Origin: a virus
IMG/VR virus record: IMGVR_UViG_3300044701_002167
Span: 1-49,745 of that record
DNA: 49,745 nucleotides
Reading direction: 5' to 3' (one strand)
In this document: positions 9,499-49,745 of the stretch, in pieces
How positions within the stretch are numbered: the stretch's first letter is position 1
Layout of the letters: each line of letters starts with the position of its first letter
Notes under the pieces: model-generated
What the model was told of the DNA's origin: nothing
The model's database searches: none
Seen by the model: the letters and a program-made list of their open reading frames with translations, nothing else
Made by a program: the position numbers and the translations under genes

Positions 9499-10682
9499 GA
9501 AATAAACTTTTGGAAGGCTCCATTAAAAGCAACGGAACTCTTTCCAAGTCTCCCATTACGATTTTTGTGAAAGTCAATACTGATACCACGGATACCATGG
9601 TCATCAGCAAACTCGTCAATTGGCGAGAGTTGAATAACGGTGTCGGCAATTTGTGCGATTTCTCCTGAGTCTCGAATAGCGTCAAGACCTTCACCTTTAT
9701 TCATCTGTGATAACGCAACAACTGCGATGTTGTTTTCTTTCGCACTTTCCTTTAATGCCTGTGCAACCTCACCGAGGTCATAGTTTTTAATCCCAGTGTT
9801 CATGTGGTTCACAATCTGCACATAGTCCAGAAAAACCACACGCCCACCACGCTGTGCGAACTCTTTAATCTCTTTCTTGATTTGGTCAAGACGGAGTGTT
9901 GGTGTATCAATGACATGGATGGGAAGTTGCTGTAACTCAAGCACAGCCTCTTCAACCTGGTCACGTTGGTCCTTTGTGATACGCCCTACAAGCAAGTTGC
10001 TTGAATCAATCTCGAGCATATACGATACCCATCGAAGTACCAACTGCTCTTTTGCCATCTCAAGACTAATCAACATAGACGGTACGTTGTATTGACGAGC
10101 CATCTCAATCATTGACTGCCCCACAAGTGCAGTCTTACCAGTCCCTGGCTTTGCCATGATTACCGTAAGCGTCTTTGGCATCCACTCACCGCCCATCATA
10201 GAATCCAGAAACTTTAGACCAGTGCGTAGGAATTGATACTGTCCGTTGGTCTTTTGAAACAAATCTCCAAGCATCTTTTGCGCACCTGGTACAATGGTTG
10301 TATCAGCCGTTGATGCGAGTGGCTCAAAGGTAAGACTACGTTCAATCTCTACCTCATCGGGTACAAACAAACGGCTCTGCTCCTCAAGCTTTTGCGCCGC
10401 ACGGTATAATTGACGACGGCGTGCAATAAGTACTAATTCGTCTACGAGTGCTTGTTGATTTGCCACAACTCCACTAGTAAGTTGGGGCGGAATATTTCCG
10501 TGTAAAGCCAAGCGTACACTTTCGTATGTCAGCTCGCCGTACTTAATGTAGGCACCGCGCATGGCCTCTAAAATATCCTGACGCTCCTCCGTGAAAATCT
10601 CCCTTGTGAGTTTATGGAGCATCGCAGGGCTGTCCATCAGTGTAGAAAGTAGTCGCCATTCTGCTGTTGTGTCAGTGTACAT
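9495..10682 (-). CDS. dnaB: Replicative DNA helicase, DnaB-like
   Basis: A 395-residue protein. I chose ATG 10682 (MYTDTTAEW) because AAAGGAG lies 5 nt upstream. The N-terminal helical domain covers about residues 1-110. The RecA-type ATPase core has Walker A AKPGTGKT at 177-184, Walker B VVFLDYVQIV at 281-290, then ALSQMNKG and the terminal FHKNRNG with an arginine-finger-like segment. It is shorter than bacterial DnaB. It unwinds DNA as a ring ahead of the phage polymerase. It overlaps the primase gene by 11 nt. Confidence 0.93.
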   Translation of the reverse strand: MYTDTTAEWRLLSTLMDSPAMLHKLTREIFTEERQDILEAMRGAYIKYGELTYESVRLALHGNIPPQLTSGVVANQQALVDELVLIARRRQLYRAAQKLEEQSRLFVPDEVEIERSLTFEPLASTADTTIVPGAQKMLGDLFQKTNGQYQFLRTGLKFLDSMMGGEWMPKTLTVIMAKPGTGKTALVGQSMIEMARQYNVPSMLISLEMAKEQLVLRWVSYMLEIDSSNLLVGRITKDQRDQVEEAVLELQQLPIHVIDTPTLRLDQIKKEIKEFAQRGGRVVFLDYVQIVNHMNTGIKNYDLGEVAQALKESAKENNIAVVALSQMNKGEGLDAIRDSGEIAQIADTVIQLSPIDEFADDHGIRGISIDFHKNRNGRLGKSSVAFNGAFQKFIS

Positions 10683-38568: not shown

Positions 38569-38597
38569 ATTATACTACGCAATTGAAAAAAAGTCAA
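38569..38597 (-). promoter_or_regulatory. Leftward sigma-70-type promoter of the divergent region
   Basis: On the minus strand TTGACT (38597-38592), 17 nt and TATAAT (38574-38569). The -10 is perfect and the -35 has one mismatch. It faces the HTH gene starting at 38524. Its -35 is 14 nt from the -35 of the rightward promoter, so the two cannot easily be used at once. Confidence 0.85.
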
Positions 38598-38616
38598 GTG
38601 TACAAAAGTACTTGAC
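38593..38616. promoter_or_regulatory. Dyad spanning both -35 boxes (operator candidate)
   Basis: GTCAAGT-g-TAC, then AAAA, then GTACTTGAC forms an inverted repeat with one bulged base, centred between the two divergent promoters. Since it contains both -35 hexamers, part of the symmetry follows from their back-to-back layout. The additional AGT/TAC arms make a binding site for a dimeric regulator plausible. The neighbouring HTH protein is one candidate ligand. Confidence 0.5.
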
Positions 38617-38640
38617 AAAACTTTCAAGATGTGATATAAT
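38612..38640 (+). promoter_or_regulatory. Rightward sigma-70 promoter P38.6
   Basis: TTGACA (38612-38617), 17 nt, TATAAT (38635-38640): a perfect consensus. It points toward the nucleotide-metabolism, packaging and lysis genes. Initiation near 38647 would give a leader of about 215 nt containing the AT-rich segment. Confidence 0.9.
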
Positions 38641-38775
38641 CTGGATAAGCCCCCGGGGCTATTAACCCTAGTTATTAATATAGTTATATTACTATTGTTT
38701 TATTTATATTATTATAATTATTATTCTAGTTATATTACTAGGGGGTATATAGGGGGATTTTTTTTTTGAAAGTAC
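38641..38775. other. AT-rich intergenic segment with repeats (possible origin)
   Basis: This is the main coding-free stretch of the window (38525-38862). After the near-palindrome AGCCCCCGGGGCT come about 90 nt of almost pure A/T, with TTATATTA-type repeats. A 14-nt block TAGTTATATTACTA occurs twice. CCCTAGT and ACTAGGG bracket the segment as an inverted repeat. A T-run follows. Such low-melting DNA with bracketing repeats can be a replication origin, or an upstream regulatory leader. No gene fits in it. I see no classical DnaA box array. Confidence 0.5.
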
Positions 38776-38804
38776 TTGACACGCAAAAGTATCTGTGGTA
38801 TACT
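38776..38804 (+). promoter_or_regulatory. Rightward sigma-70-type promoter P38.8
   Basis: TTGACA (38776-38781), 17 nt, TATACT (38799-38804). It lies about 60 nt upstream of the first rightward gene (ATG 38863, with GGAGG before it). It is preceded by AAGTAC, as is P38.6 (AAAGTACTTGACA occurs at both), so a shared upstream factor could act on both. Confidence 0.88.
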
Positions 38805-38862
38805 TAGTCATGTTGTTAAGTTGTGTTGAGGGGCATAACTTCACAAACTTTATGGAGGTATT

Positions 38863-42063: not shown

Positions 42064-42702
42064 ATGGCGAAAAAGAAGAGATTTGATGAGATTTTGCAGG
42101 AGTATGGGCAGAAATACGATATTGAAACGTTAGATTCACCCAACGACAAGGCAAATCTCACCATGCTTATCAATAATCAAGTAATTATTGAACGACTTCA
42201 AGCAGAGATGCTTGCGGTCACAGAGGTATCCGCCGTTGATAACATTGAGGAAGTAAAGCAAATCGGTAATGCGATGCGCGATTTGATTGAAAGAAACCTG
42301 CAAATTGAACGTGCACTTGCGCTTGACCGTAAGACACGCAAGTCGGAAAACACAGATAGCCTTGCTACGTACATTACTGACTTAAAAGTAAACGCGCAGA
42401 ACTTTCTTGAGAAACGGTTGATTAAAGTGTACTGCCCAGATTGTAAAATACTGTTGGCGCGGTTTTCTCCAGTAATGGACCACACAGCGTTTCACTTCGA
42501 GTGTCAATGCAGTCAGTGCAGCAAGCGCGTTACGGCCTCGCGGAAAGCGGCTTCGGAAGGGGTGCTTTTTGATATTAAGGACTACAAATGGCGCAAGCAG
42601 TATTTGTACGAGGTAATTCAGCCCGAAACTAGCGAAGATAAGCTAATTCCAGAAACTGATGAGGAGGTAATTCTGAGCGATGCCACTCCAGAAAAAGATT
42701 GA
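42064..42702 (+). CDS. terS: Small terminase subunit candidate
   Basis: A 212-residue protein directly before the large terminase, overlapping it by 23 nt. The first 120 residues are helical, and residues 120-160 contain CPDCK and CQCSQC, a zinc-ribbon-like knuckle. The C-terminus is acidic. Small terminases are helical oligomers that pick the packaging site. The zinc-ribbon tail is unusual for them, so the call rests mainly on position. A DNA-binding regulator is the alternative. Confidence 0.6.
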   Translation: MAKKKRFDEILQEYGQKYDIETLDSPNDKANLTMLINNQVIIERLQAEMLAVTEVSAVDNIEEVKQIGNAMRDLIERNLQIERALALDRKTRKSENTDSLATYITDLKVNAQNFLEKRLIKVYCPDCKILLARFSPVMDHTAFHFECQCSQCSKRVTASRKAASEGVLFDIKDYKWRKQYLYEVIQPETSEDKLIPETDEEVILSDATPEKD

Positions 42703-45283
42703 AGAGCCAGAGTTAGCTCTCCTTGAGATTATGGAAGACCCTATCTGGCTTAATGAGTTTCTCCGTTCTACAAATAACGGGGACATGAACAAGAATAACT
42801 GGCCTGCGGAAGAATTCAAACACCGACCATATCAAAAAGAAATCCTCACCGACCAAAACAAGCACATTATTATTACTGGCGGGCGTTCCATCGGTAAGTG
42901 CCAACCACTCAACGCGAAAATCTACACGATTGATGGATTTAAGTCTATCCGACAACTTGAGCAGAAAGGCTCCTTTATTACCTACGCGTACACAACTGAC
43001 GGGAAGTTTCGTCAGCGTCGAGGGGTAGTAACTCCTGACAAATGGACATACACGTACACATATGAGTTTCCTACTGGACACGAGCTAGAATGTACTGAAA
43101 ATCACCCCGTACTCACTCCGCATGGATTTGTACTGGCTGGTGACTTAAAACTCGGCGACTTAGTCGGTATTGCAAATTACCTCCCTACTGACCACTGCGT
43201 AAACGATTCGTACAGCTGGTTTGAGTTACGCCTTTTGGGGTATGATGCCCTCTCTCGTATGCGGCTAAAGAGTCATTTAAAAATCAAGCCGAAGTACAAG
43301 CAGATTGCAGAAGAGTTAAAGTTTATTAACGATAACATCTTTACAAAACTGCGTATTGAGGATGGGTATTATTACTTCGACCGTTATAACACGGGGCAAT
43401 CGAGGCACTACCTTTTTCAAATTCAGCAAGAGATTGGTACATTAAAGAGAAGATACCGCCGGTCGGCTACTTTGGACTGGTTAAAGAAAGAAAAACTTGA
43501 TAATATTAAAATCTTTCTTGAGGCGGTATTCGCCCAGTATGGAACACTTAGTCTTGAAAAAGTCAGCATCCCTGTGTTTAACACACGATACGCAAAAGAC
43601 TTCCAAGAAGTACTGTCCTACTTTGGCGTAGCGACTAAGCTGGTACACATCGGAATGCATGATGAGTATAGCGCGCGAAACTTACGGTACAATCGCGATA
43701 TGTGGCGCGTAGAAACAATCAGCAAAGAGTTTGCAACACGGTTCTGGCAGACGTTTAAAATCCCTGGGGTTAGAGTTGAAGCCAACTATGACGACATTGA
43801 CCCACCGCCATTAGTGCGCTGGGAACCGCTTCAAAAACGCACACAGCGTCCGTACAAAGTCGCTACGTATGCAGTGTCTGTCTATACTGATGAAACCTAT
43901 ATTTCTGAGTACGTCATTGTGCATAACTCGGTAATTATTGAAGATTTACTCACGTACCAGATTGTAAACAATGACATCGAGTTTCCAAAAACAGCAGAAC
44001 AATTACTAGTCACGCCAAACACAAACCAGTTAACACCGCTTCTCGACCGCGTAATTCTCAAATTCACTACGTCACCGCTATTACGTGAGTTCTTAGGGAA
44101 TAATGTGAATAGGTCAAAAGGTACGCTTGACTTTAAGTTTGGTGGGCGGAATCATCGCTTCTACGCGCGTATTGCGGGTACAAAGGAATCGAACAACTTG
44201 GTCGGTCTGCATATCCCTAAGATTGCTGGTGATGAGATGCAGTTATTCCCAATGACCGCGTTTAATCAGCTTCAACCCACGTTGAATACCTGGGAACCAA
44301 AGGTACAGGAAGTGTACTGCGGCGTGCCAAACGGCCTCAGAAATTCAGCACTATACGACTTAGATATGCGAAGAGCGAAGTACAAGAAGTACCGCATCCC
44401 TTCTCCGAACAATCCGTACTTCACGCTAGATGACTGGAACGATTCTTTACGGAAATACGGTGGTATTGAGGAAGACATTTTCCAACAACTCGTACTTGGT
44501 AAACACGGTAGTGCAAGCTTCCAGGTAATCCCTCGCGATGCGTTTGTAACCGAAGCGTTTGACTTTTACAGTTATCGCTTTAGTAACAACGATAAGATGA
44601 AGGGAAAAAGCTACGAAGAAGTGCTAAAACTACACAACGTCAAGAACCAAGAAACAATCATTCTGTCTATTGACACAGGGTTTACCGACCCGACGATTAT
44701 TCAAGTTATTGGATTGTACGAAAATACGTATAGAACATTTGTGCGATACCGACTTACCAAGATTGACTATCCAGAGCAAGAACGTATTATTCACTATCTT
44801 ACAAAACACTATAACCCCAGTCGCATCGCTATTGACGTAGGTGCTGGTGGTGGAGGTCCTGGCATTATCCAATCTTTAACAACAAGGCCTGAATATGCAA
44901 ATAATAAATATTCTGAACGAGTGGTTAGCGTACTATTTAACGAGCGTGTGCCAGTTGGGCGAACCGAGGACGATACTGAACTCACTGAAGTTTTCCGTTC
45001 ATGGGGTGGTAAGGAGCTTGCCAGAATGGTTACAGAAGGGCGCGTGGTATTTTCGGAAATTGATGTGGAGGGTATTTCGCAACTCGAGCGATTAACCCGA
45101 CAGCGTAGAATTACTGGAAACGACCACTACTTCATTATGAGCGACCGTGGAAGCGGGGCTGCTGATGATGACCACATCTTTGCAAGTTACTTGTGTTTTA
45201 TTTACGCACTTCGTGGAAAAATTGATAACATCGCACAATCGGTCGCCCTAGGCAGACCATCCGCAAAGACTACAGAGAGGTAA
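42680..45283 (+). CDS. terL: Large terminase subunit interrupted by an intein
   Basis: An 867-residue precursor. Residues 74-416 are an intein; the exteins total 524 residues, the normal size for TerL. Walker A is GGRSIGK plus S417 after splicing, and a Walker B-like site is AGDE (D518, E519). The RNase-H nuclease shows D665 (ILSIDTG), D719 (IAIDVG) and D829-D831 (ADDDH). This motor packages DNA and cuts it. Splicing must restore the ATP-binding P-loop, so packaging activity depends on the intein. The start, ATG 42680, follows GAGGAGG by about 12 nt. Confidence 0.95.
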   Translation: MPLQKKIEEPELALLEIMEDPIWLNEFLRSTNNGDMNKNNWPAEEFKHRPYQKEILTDQNKHIIITGGRSIGKCQPLNAKIYTIDGFKSIRQLEQKGSFITYAYTTDGKFRQRRGVVTPDKWTYTYTYEFPTGHELECTENHPVLTPHGFVLAGDLKLGDLVGIANYLPTDHCVNDSYSWFELRLLGYDALSRMRLKSHLKIKPKYKQIAEELKFINDNIFTKLRIEDGYYYFDRYNTGQSRHYLFQIQQEIGTLKRRYRRSATLDWLKKEKLDNIKIFLEAVFAQYGTLSLEKVSIPVFNTRYAKDFQEVLSYFGVATKLVHIGMHDEYSARNLRYNRDMWRVETISKEFATRFWQTFKIPGVRVEANYDDIDPPPLVRWEPLQKRTQRPYKVATYAVSVYTDETYISEYVIVHNSVIIEDLLTYQIVNNDIEFPKTAEQLLVTPNTNQLTPLLDRVILKFTTSPLLREFLGNNVNRSKGTLDFKFGGRNHRFYARIAGTKESNNLVGLHIPKIAGDEMQLFPMTAFNQLQPTLNTWEPKVQEVYCGVPNGLRNSALYDLDMRRAKYKKYRIPSPNNPYFTLDDWNDSLRKYGGIEEDIFQQLVLGKHGSASFQVIPRDAFVTEAFDFYSYRFSNNDKMKGKSYEEVLKLHNVKNQETIILSIDTGFTDPTIIQVIGLYENTYRTFVRYRLTKIDYPEQERIIHYLTKHYNPSRIAIDVGAGGGGPGIIQSLTTRPEYANNKYSERVVSVLFNERVPVGRTEDDTELTEVFRSWGGKELARMVTEGRVVFSEIDVEGISQLERLTRQRRITGNDHYFIMSDRGSGAADDDHIFASYLCFIYALRGKIDNIAQSVALGRPSAKTTER
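42899..43927 (+). mobile_element. Intein in TerL Walker A, with decayed LAGLIDADG region
   Basis: 343 residues from C1 (CQPLNAKIYTIDG, block A) to a C-terminal VIVHN before Ser+1. Block B is ECTENHP with the T-x-x-H pattern; blocks F/G read YISEYVIVHN with the penultimate His kept. All splicing residues (Cys1, TxxH, His-Asn, Ser+1) are present, so splicing looks intact. Residues 180-360 resemble a LAGLIDADG-type endonuclease: FLEAVFAQYGTLS (279-291) matches a second-motif helix, and LLGYDALS the first. The acidic catalytic residues are replaced, so cutting is probably lost. Confidence 0.92.
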
Positions 45284-47691: not shown

Positions 47692-48116
47692 ACCCAGAAA
47701 TGCAACTCGCCCAAACGATTAGTATGGTGTTGAGTGGTACCGTTATCCCTATTGTTATCCTGTGGCTAAAGCGTTTGAGCTGGCCGAGTCACTATAAGTT
47801 CGGTTTAGCGGTGGCTCTTTCGGTTGTACTCGCGACACTTACCGCGTATATTGAAGGGCAATTAACCCCCACATCGCTTACCGCAAACTTCCTGACTATC
47901 TTTACGATTAGTCAGGGTGTATATCAAACGTTCTTTAAGGCACTAAACCTGCATTGGTTTATCTATCCCCAGGACGTGGTAGCGAGCCACGCAAAACAAC
48001 TCGCTGTAGAGAACATGGAACCCGTGTTAACAAAGGAAATTGCCGAGAATATTCTTCGGCAAGACAAGCCTGAACAACTCGTTGTCGAGATTGGCATTCA
48101 GAAAGCGGAGGGTTAA
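47688..48116 (+). CDS. Holin candidate
   Basis: A 142-residue membrane protein. Three likely membrane spans lie at about 8-26 (SMVLSGTVIPIVILWL), 38-54 (GLAVALSVVLATLTAYI) and, weaker, 66-84. The rest is a soluble tail of about 55 charged residues. Its place after the amidase and the coiled-coil protein, and before a terminator, fits a phage holin that lets the endolysin out. The soluble tail is longer than in classical holins. Confidence 0.75.
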   Translation: MNPEMQLAQTISMVLSGTVIPIVILWLKRLSWPSHYKFGLAVALSVVLATLTAYIEGQLTPTSLTANFLTIFTISQGVYQTFFKALNLHWFIYPQDVVASHAKQLAVENMEPVLTKEIAENILRQDKPEQLVVEIGIQKAEG

Positions 48117-48118
48117 GA

Positions 48119-48147
48119 AACGCCCCTTCGGGGGCGTTCTCTTTTTA
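48119..48147 (+). terminator. Rho-independent terminator of the rightward operon
   Basis: A perfect stem AACGCCCC/GGGGCGTT with a TTCG tetraloop (48119-48138), followed by CTCTTTTTATTTT. It ends the operon right after the holin candidate. The DNA methyltransferase begins only 15 nt later with its own Shine-Dalgarno site, so it depends on read-through or on a promoter I cannot see. Confidence 0.92.
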
Positions 48148-48161
48148 TTTTAAGGAGTTAT

Positions 48162-49361
48162 ATGATTGATTTACGAGTAGGAAATAGCCTAGAAGTGCTA
48201 AAAGAGTTTCCGGATAACAGTGTTGATTCAATAGTAACTGACCCACCCTACGGGTTAAGTTCTTTTGATGAAAAGAAAATCCGCACAACGCTTACTACAT
48301 GGCTAACAAATGACCCAGCCTACATTCCTGAAGGAAAAGGGTTTATGGGGAAAGACTGGGATGGCTTTGTACCCCCACCTGCTATTTGGTCTGAAGTATT
48401 TCGTGTATTAAAACCCGGCGGACATCTTATTTGTTTCGCAGGGACACGTACTGTTGATTTGATGACTATATCACTTCGTTTAGCAGGCTTTGAAATTAGA
48501 GATACAATTATGTGGCTGTATGGCTCGGGGTTTCCGAAGTCGCACGATGTCAGCAAGGCGTTGGATAAGCAGGCAGGTGCGGAGAGGGAGTTAATAAGAA
48601 CTCCAATTACTCCAAAAAGTACAGCCGGAAAAGGTTTATCAAATGAACTTGACGAAAGACCCCGGCTAACTAAAGCAAGAGAAGTTGGCTATCACGAACA
48701 CGCTGGAAACACTCCCGCCACCGACCTCGCAAAGCAGTGGCACGGTTGGGGCACTGCCATCAAGCCAGCTCATGAGCCTGCCGTGCTTGCCCGCAAACCA
48801 CTGACCGGCACCGTTGCCGACAATGTTTTGACGTGGGGCACCGGTGCGCTCAACATTGATGGGTGCAGGGTGGCGACGGATGATGATTTGAATGGTGGTT
48901 CATATGGAAATACCACACGAGAAGTAGACCAGTACTTCAATGGTAAAAAGCCAGGTGGAGCGGGCCAATTCGTGCAACCCTCCGGCCGCTGGCCTGCCAA
49001 CGTCATCCTCGACGAGAGCGCAGGCGAGGCATTGGACGAGCAGAGTGATGCAACGCCGTCACGCTTTTTCTACACCGCCAAAGCGTCGAAGGCTGAGCGG
49101 GAGGCTGGGCTGGATGCGAGCGATGCACGAGCCAACCACCACCCCACCGTCAAACCTATTGCCCTCATGCGCTACCTCGTGCGCCTCGTCACGCCACCAA
49201 ATGGAGTTGTATTAGACCCGTTTATGGGGAGTGGAAGTACGGGATGTGCGGCTGTATTAGAGGGGATGCAGTTTATTGGAATTGAACTTAGCGAGGAATA
49301 TAAAGAAATCGCCGAGAAACGTATTGCACATTGGCAAGCACAGAACCCAATGAACCTTTAA
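48162..49361 (+). CDS. Site-specific DNA methyltransferase (N6A/N4C type)
   Basis: A 399-residue enzyme. Catalytic motif IV DPPY is at residues 27-30 and the SAM-binding motif FMGSGSTG at about 354-361, so the catalytic half precedes the SAM half (beta-class order). The middle, about residues 120-330, is the target-recognition region. It likely methylates adenine N6 or cytosine N4 at a fixed site, protecting phage DNA from host restriction. No restriction endonuclease gene is nearby. The base composition is patchy: the centre is visibly more GC-rich than both ends, suggesting recombination. Confidence 0.9.
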   Translation: MIDLRVGNSLEVLKEFPDNSVDSIVTDPPYGLSSFDEKKIRTTLTTWLTNDPAYIPEGKGFMGKDWDGFVPPPAIWSEVFRVLKPGGHLICFAGTRTVDLMTISLRLAGFEIRDTIMWLYGSGFPKSHDVSKALDKQAGAERELIRTPITPKSTAGKGLSNELDERPRLTKAREVGYHEHAGNTPATDLAKQWHGWGTAIKPAHEPAVLARKPLTGTVADNVLTWGTGALNIDGCRVATDDDLNGGSYGNTTREVDQYFNGKKPGGAGQFVQPSGRWPANVILDESAGEALDEQSDATPSRFFYTAKASKAEREAGLDASDARANHHPTVKPIALMRYLVRLVTPPNGVVLDPFMGSGSTGCAAVLEGMQFIGIELSEEYKEIAEKRIAHWQAQNPMNL

Positions 49362-49365
49362 TCTC

Positions 49366-49394
49366 TTGACAAGGGAAACAAAACCTGCTATACT
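49366..49394 (+). promoter_or_regulatory. Sigma-70-type promoter for the lipoprotein gene
   Basis: TTGACA (49366-49371), 17 nt, TATACT (49389-49394). It begins 5 nt after the methyltransferase stop. Initiation near 49401 would create a leader of about 190 nt before the next gene. Its sequence is of the same class as the phage promoters at 2.2, 12.6 and 38.8 kb. Confidence 0.88.
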
Positions 49395-49407
49395 ATCTAT
49401 AGGTTAA

Positions 49408-49561
49408 GCGTAGTTTCTACTATTCTTGGTAGCTTTGGCACGGCCGAAGTGCACATGATAGCGAAGTACTAGCCATACGAGTACTATCATGACTTTATGA
49501 AAACGTAGCTAGAAGAACCTACAGGTGGCACCTGTGAACGGCCCACGGCGGGCTACTACGC
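49408..49561 (+). ncRNA. Structured 5' leader RNA, unidentified
   Basis: A 7-bp closing stem GCGTAGT (49408-49414) with ACTACGC (49555-49561) encloses at least five hairpins: CTAC/GTAG (49417-49432); CTTTGGC/GCCGAAG (49433-49449); ATGAT/ATCAT with inner AGTACT/AGTACT (49455-49490); ACAGGT/ACCTGT (49521-49535); GCCC/GGGC (49541-49553). Such nested, closed architecture is typical of riboswitches or other functional RNAs. It sits between a strong promoter and the lipoprotein ATG, about 30 nt before it, with no terminator. I cannot match a known riboswitch class. The hairpins are from inspection only. Confidence 0.6.
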
Positions 49562-49590
49562 ACTTTGCCGTACCATATTTTTGAGGAGAA

Positions 49591-49745
49591 ATGATTTTGC
49601 GAACAGTACTGATGGCGATTATCGCCGTAATGCTCATGGCCTGTGGGGCAAGTCCCGCAGAAACCCAGACCACCACGATTGGTATGGTGTTGGTCGGGCC
49701 AATTAACGACGGCGGGTGGAGCCAAGCACACCACGATGCCATGCT
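49591..49745 (+). CDS. Bmp/PnrA-type ABC solute-binding lipoprotein, N-terminus
   Basis: The frame runs off the right edge. From ATG 49591 the first 20 residues are hydrophobic (RTVLMAIIAVMLMACG) and end in an LMAC lipobox, so the mature N-terminus would be a lipid-modified Cys. Then IGMVLVGPINDGGWSQAHHD matches the start of Bmp/PnrA-family binding proteins, which capture nucleosides for an ABC transporter. A TTG at 49597 has better spacing to GAGGAG. The coding is more GC-rich than the phage genes, suggesting host chromosome or recently acquired cargo. Confidence 0.75.
   Translation, partial: MILRTVLMAIIAVMLMACGASPAETQTTTIGMVLVGPINDGGWSQAHHDAM

Follow-up and report, generated by a model that had tools for sequence, protein, structure and literature searches.

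A putative pseudoknotted leader RNA upstream of a Bmp-type lipoprotein gene in one clade of phages

The bmp locus and its phage

The window, meaning the whole stretch of DNA that was analysed, is IMG/VR record IMGVR_UViG_3300044701_002167 (49,745 b). At the end of this contig there are a strong promoter, a leader RNA of about 172 nt, and the 5' part of bmp (Table 1). The promoter, which the initial annotation had called near-consensus, scores 11/12. It is the best of four sites on both strands of 48000-49745, where shuffled sequences average 1.7 sites of at least 9/12. A like promoter architecture is found upstream of bmp in L005 (L030) and in L008/L009 (L021). Counting from the -10 box, TAGGTT starts at base 6 in the window and at base 8 in both L005 and L008, and the fold is accordingly predicted to begin at or close to the 5' end of the transcript. 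In the window, the ATG of bmp stands just 2 nt past AGGAG (49584-49599). L005 and L008 have an ATG directly before an aligned TTG and the window reads ATT there; thus, the window's bmp may start poorly or at another codon.

Table 1. Features of the promoter, leader, and bmp start (window positions)
Feature	Position	Strand	Remarks
Promoter	49366-49394	+	TTGACA-17-TATACT, TG ahead of the -10 box
TTGACA box	49366-49371	+	17-nt spacer to the -10 box
-10 box	49389-49394	+	TATACT
P0, 5' strand	49401-49405	+	AGGUU; at or near the predicted transcript start
P1, 5' strand	49408-49414	+	GCGUAGU; 7-bp base stem; invariant
P2 hairpin	49417-49432	+	CUACU/GGUAG; stem invariant
L2	49422-49427	+	Pyrimidine loop of P2
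P3 hairpin	49433-49449	+	CUUUGGC/GCCGAAG; both-sided change in 4/6 core pairs
P4 with P4b and loop L4	49454-49491	+	
P4 strands	49454-49461/49484-49491	+	Both-sided change in 1/6 core pairs
P4b strands	49466-49468/49476-49478	+	Inner helix; both-sided change in 1/3 core pairs
GCCA of L4	49472-49475	+	Invariant
P0, 3' strand	49516-49520	+	AACCU
P7 hairpin	49521-49535	+	ACAGG/CCUGU; both-sided change in 5/5 core pairs
L7	49526-49530	+	UGGCA
P8 hairpin	49545-49571	+	ACGGC (49545-49549)/GCCGU (49567-49571); both-sided change in 3/5 core pairs
P1, 3' strand	49555-49561	+	ACUACGC; within the P8 loop
Ribosome-binding site	49584-49588	+	AGGAG, 12 nt past P8; direct reading
bmp, 5' part	49591-49745	+	Bmp/PnrA-type substrate-binding lipoprotein; start ATG at 49591; 385 aa in L002 (4998-6152)

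The bmp reading frame exits the edge of the window and is complete in L002, part of a record of 68,926 b (68.9 kb). L002 is identical to the window over 445 b across the leader, and the portal protein is 100% identical between the window and the L002 record. Further phage genes lie downstream of bmp in L002, and some of these have same-order look-alikes in L026 (by eye). Because this longer record of the same phage holds a complete bmp with phage genes behind it, bmp is phage cargo. This was one of two options in the initial annotation; the other, that bmp is the first host gene, is ruled out. Apart from the window, 17 IMG/VR records contain phage bmp genes. In INPHARED, bmp matched only two unannotated human-gut phage records (29% and 24% identity) and the whole terminase reading frame had no match.

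The complete Bmp protein of L002 belongs to PF02608 (E = 2.8e-17, 63.1 bits, where the Pfam gathering score is 24.1 bits). PF02608 is matched by all nine members of the phage Bmp set A1, and no PHROG match was found for the protein. Its closest PDB relatives are AtzT (6pi5) and 3s99, of which 6pi5 is the best (E 1.6e-23 by profile). In excerpts of its published description, AtzT was found with guanine bound (PMC6834077). By eye, an alignment retains the Ser, Glu, and Trp of the AtzT pocket in the phage protein, and Asn218/Asn220 are replaced by Gly/Asp and Phe98 by Asp. Purine-type binding is thus plausible from the alignment, and the substitutions mean that the ligand may differ from that of AtzT. 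As for the ABC transporter genes that the initial annotation proposed to look for beyond bmp, neither a PF02653 permease nor a PF00005 ATPase was found in any of six phage records including the window, though these records may be fragments. Several bmp loci of Chloroflexales have adjoining ABC ATPase/permease genes (L032, L033, L034, L039, and L040; by eye).

The top four cellular relatives, among the best 80 of 490, are 58-60% identical to the phage Bmp; three carry the name Roseiflexaceae in their titles, the fourth Thermoflexus. A tree of 27 proteins was made from 12 phage proteins, with near copies left out, and 15 of the 80 cellular loci. In this tree 11 of the 12 phage proteins group together and L028 stands beside the Roseiflexaceae rows. 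The three proteins whose genes have the long leader form one clade (support 98/96). With the cellular relatives of Bmp and this tree as the sole basis, it appears that the carrier phages probably infect freshwater Chloroflexota.

The proposed fold and its conservation

Three distinct homologous sequences were compared: the window (with L002), L005, and L008, which equals L009. All of them lie directly before bmp. The RNA is 61-67% identical among them, and the distance from the leader start (TAGGTT) to AGGAG is 184, 185, and 184 nt in the window, L005, and L008. Eight helices (P0, P1, P2, P3, P4, P4b, P7, and P8), including the hairpins P2, P3, P4/P4b, P7, and P8, can be drawn at nearly equal positions in each of the three. 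The initial annotation had described a closed set of hairpins on a 7-bp base stem. That stem, P1, is present and invariant in the three sequences; the multiloop is not closed, because P8 crosses the stem. Since the loop of P8 encloses the 3' strand of P1, the leader is a predicted pseudoknot. P0, with 4 pairs common to the three homologues, also crosses P1. A loop-loop contact between GCCA of L4 and UGGC of L7 is likely, judging from the aligned letters. The UGGC is invariant although every core pair of P7 around it has changed. P0, P1, P2, and the L4 by L7 contact never vary among the three homologues and are thus without covariation of their own. Conserved letters between P4 and P7 are left unpaired in the model.

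Compensatory changes were scored on two alignments. When aligned by hand, 135 of 135 cells were paired over 45 pairs (the L4 by L7 contact included) and 14 pairs were changed on both sides; this alignment was anchored on the proposed structure and is hence biased towards it. When the partners were slid by 1-3 positions as a control, 34-66 cells were paired with 0-2 both-sided pairs. On a plain MAFFT alignment, a hand-written seven-helix structure was 91.1% paired and had 10 both-sided pairs, neither of which was reached by any of 500 shuffles. The number of further pair types was reached in three of 500. RNAalifold on the sequence-only MAFFT alignment gave -27.45 versus -15.25 +/- 3.29, and one of 500 column shuffles was as good. 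The fold that it chose retains P1, P3, most of P2, and roughly P7, and is without P4 and P8. It pairs GCCA of L4 with the 5' strand of P8 instead of with L7; this strand is a possible competing partner. Part of this discrepancy comes from one-base slips of MAFFT at P3, P7, and P4b and from the program, which cannot show pseudoknots.

The stability of the window sequence by itself is unremarkable (-54.8 kcal/mol, z = -0.78, with 43 of 200 shuffles at least as stable), and the minimum-free-energy fold is a different structure. One sequence alone would therefore not have revealed the proposed fold. The covariation that the initial annotation had looked to among homologous bmp leaders does appear, as compensatory changes beyond the controls, on three sequences and with an RNAalifold fold that partly differs. 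These three distinct sequences argue for a conserved structured RNA.

In L005 and L008 the pyrimidine loop L2 complements the ribosome-binding site; in the window it does so only weakly. The duplex energies are -8.0, -7.6, and -3.2 kcal/mol, respectively. Shuffled letters of L2 reach these energies in 8% (L005), 5% (L008), and 63% (window) of cases, and 23% of random loops pair with the ribosome-binding site of the window as well as its own L2 does. No + strand terminator-like site was called between 49400 and 49590.

Distribution of the leader and the leaders of other bmp genes

A covariance scan, which the initial annotation had named as the way to recognise a known RNA class, found no Rfam 15 family at the gathering threshold and no credible match at E up to 10. 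The sole weak match covers 20 nt of the promoter region with a lncRNA model (E = 1) and is ascribed to chance. A covariance model, R1, was built from the three homologues themselves. It matches five of 18 phage records including the window, once in each and always before bmp. R1 matched none of 80 cellular bmp loci (the best 80 of 490, of which at least L076, L085, and L089 hold less than 300 b before the match), none of seven whole genomes, and none of 82 genomes of the probable host order under stricter filters and without a positive control genome. It also had no match in the 12 loci L132-L143 or the 13 loci L144-L156. No second target gene was found, R1 gave no second copy in the same phage records, and in the records searched the leader was seen nowhere but before bmp. 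As far as was searched, the leader is restricted to one phage clade.

A search with the portal protein gave 16 loci. R1 matches four of the 15 loci L117-L131, all in records that were already known, and does not match the sixteenth, L027. Loci L119, L121, and L130 end before the position of bmp and L118 stops within a methyltransferase gene, so these four are uninformative on the leader. Four DNA patterns compared with viral contigs gave no new copy. L013 and L015 were rejected as homologues, being chance matches in coding sequence of other phages (partial model matches, E 0.8). Matches of 24 bases in 12 INPHARED records (E = 8) were likewise taken as chance. A tRNA or tmRNA reading was dropped, as the single ARAGORN call in the window is a tRNA-Arg outside the leader. 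Two further resemblances were also dropped, with Rfam as the one tool check. These were an HDV-like ribozyme, for which there is little to cleave between the promoter and the RNA, and a Cas12a repeat (UUUCUACU), whose letters L008 does not have. Titles and opening lines of the open-access literature, among the matches listed, do not describe this RNA or any Bmp protein in Chloroflexota phages. Many non-coding RNA genes are reported in a cyanophage in excerpts of one article (PMC9964418).

The long leader was not found ahead of bmp in sister phages, where short hairpins prevail. A single 5'-proximal hairpin follows the same kind of promoter, in the same slot, in all eight short phage bmp leaders that were folded (L003, L004, L006, L010, L011, L024, L027, and L029, where L027 equals L029). 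This count leaves out the copies L007, L025, and L026 and also L012 and L023, upstream of whose bmp no such promoter was seen. Leaders of both kinds, long and short, have a similar A/T-rich stretch at their 3' end, ahead of AGGAG. The short hairpin in this slot suggests a cis role at the 5' end of the bmp mRNA. The sister phages are a natural control, with the same gene, promoter, and position, with or without the knotted RNA.

Sister phages also possess arrays of tRNA-like RNAs behind strong promoters (L026:9053-9340, 9505-9655, and 9897-10200; also L024 and partly L025). By eye, terminator-like hairpins follow these RNAs, which show a T-arm GGUUCGA(A/U)UCC, a CCGURGGURCGG hairpin, and a loop, GAUUCUAGA, that recurs. 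In the L026 region they gave no ARAGORN tRNA and no Rfam match at the gathering score. Their 5' ends, AUAAGGUURAG, resemble AUAGGUURAG of the leader. R1 shows no convincing kinship between the two: without filters it gave only partial matches, the best at RNA starts having E 0.38 and 0.87 and one on the reverse strand E 0.25.

Five Roseiflexaceae-type bmp genes have a conserved leader of their own (L032:2888-3022, L033:5696-5820, L034:3132-3256, L035:2172-2296, and L036:5824-5958). Some 50 nt ahead of the start it has a terminator-like hairpin, GGTCGAC..GTCGGCC-TTTT, with CCCC/GGGG or CCCAG/CTGGG as flanks. No Rfam match was found for these leaders. It is possible that they are host attenuators or riboswitches for purine uptake.

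Possible roles of the leader

The RNA is, with moderate confidence, a phage-encoded, clade-specific 5' leader of about 172 nt, which would form a compact pseudoknot and act in cis on the cistron of the Bmp lipoprotein. It probably controls bmp translation and/or the life of the mRNA. The promoter, conservation, compensatory changes, pseudoknot topology, phage origin, and clade restriction (as far as searched) have computational support, and gating and/or shielding are inferred. Transcription would start at or within a few bases of the leader start. The fold, whose P1/P8 knot ends 12 nt before the ribosome-binding site, may then gate the start of translation, and L2 could add to the gate by pairing with AGGAG, strongly in L005 and L008 and weakly in the window. 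In addition or instead, the fold may guard a strongly transcribed mRNA against decay at its 5' end, as the short hairpins may.

Cis action is favoured because of the fixed distance to the ribosome-binding site, the lack of a called + strand terminator, and the link to bmp wherever the leader is found. A small RNA that acts in trans, transcribed from its own promoter with read-through into bmp, would suit the strong promoter, the compact fold, and the 5' end at the fold. No + strand terminator-like site was called between the RNA and bmp, however, the 184-185 nt to the ribosome-binding site are fixed, and no copy was seen away from bmp in the records searched. The phage small RNA that was initially proposed has thus become the least probable of the readings weighed here. 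More can be said for a rigid domain that only guards the strongly transcribed phage mRNA from 5'-end-dependent decay, with no switching, as an elaborate version of the sister hairpins. The leader begins 6, 8, and 8 nt past the -10 box in the three homologues and all eight folded short leaders hold a hairpin in this slot. According to excerpts of one study, 5' roadblocks stabilise mRNA (PMC3997798). The leader is like such 5'-terminal stabilisers in that a strong promoter is followed by a structured 5' end, and unlike them in its length of about 172 nt, its knot, and its conserved loops, in place of one hairpin. A simple hairpin would suffice, as the sister phages indicate, and protection would not explain the conserved loop letters or a knot near the ribosome-binding site. 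Protection alone is thus unlikely, although it is the foremost of the alternatives.

In a riboswitch, binding of a purine, nucleoside, or nucleotide to the folded domain would expose or mask the ribosome-binding site of bmp. The gene downstream does encode a transporter component, and the guanine-bound AtzT is its closest solved relative. The fold is complex, with a pseudoknot and invariant loop letters, and two of the three homologues allow pairing between L2 and the ribosome-binding site. In the leaders of cobalamin-type riboswitches, loop-loop docking occurs onto the ribosome-binding site. These share with the present leader a 5' multi-hairpin architecture, a pseudoknot, and a loop complementary to the ribosome site (here in two of three). 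The present leader differs in having no Rfam match, in being found in phages only, and in the weak L2 pairing of the window. Known transporter riboswitches usually travel with their gene family. The leader is missing from the cellular bmp loci (0/80, best 80 of 490) and from sister phage bmp genes, which counts against a general nucleoside riboswitch, as do the lack of a second target gene or second copy in the same phage records and the lack of an Rfam match. Recurrence before linked genes in different genomes, by which a riboswitch would be recognised, was not seen; the leader occurs only before bmp of one phage clade. The initial idea that it senses a nucleoside or nucleotide is so far unsupported, and a riboswitch is judged unlikely, more so than protection alone. 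More doubtful still is a narrower form, a phage-only riboswitch class with a double-knotted aptamer, probably for a purine, that would tune a purine-catching lipoprotein displayed on the infected cell. If this is true, nucleobase uptake by way of the host transporter could be adjusted by the phage.

Another possibility is that a translational repressor, from the phage or the host, binds the leader, as happens in that of T4 gene 32. The target in that leader is a pseudoknot. There is phage precedent in that T4 gp32 represses its own mRNA, as stated in excerpts of one paper (PMC535899), and the conserved unpaired letters between P4 and P7 would fit a protein site. Both would be phage mRNA leaders acting in cis on translation. 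The present leader is, however, much larger and multi-hairpin, and the gene product is a lipoprotein substrate-binding protein rather than a nucleic-acid-binding one, with no expected affinity for RNA. A protein target ranks below both forms of riboswitch and is improbable, if less so than a small RNA.

The RNA lies outside the catalogued families, is so far found only in phages, and precedes a plausible auxiliary gene for a lone purine-type binding protein. A phosphate-binding protein is also carried by some phages, and cyanophage pstS (PMC10976474) is similar as a lone substrate-binding protein in a phage; the present case differs in its Bmp/purine type, its probable Chloroflexota host, and its knotted RNA leader. 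Comparison of knotted and hairpin leaders could show how a phage benefits from such intricate RNA-based control of one surface protein.

Other features were seen in these phages. The large terminase reading frame of the window (42680-45283, 867 aa) has an apparent intein in its ATP-binding motif, GRSIGK|C...VHN|S (by eye). GIY-YIG-like endonuclease reading frames are present in relatives of the window phage (L118:79-831 and L121:235-948), beside broken-up ribonucleotide reductase frames (by eye). Divergent strong promoters are found at 38597-38850 of the window, 12/12 at 38612 (+), 11/12 at 38776 (+), and 11/12 at 38597 (-), and each has a predicted hairpin within the first bases of its transcript.
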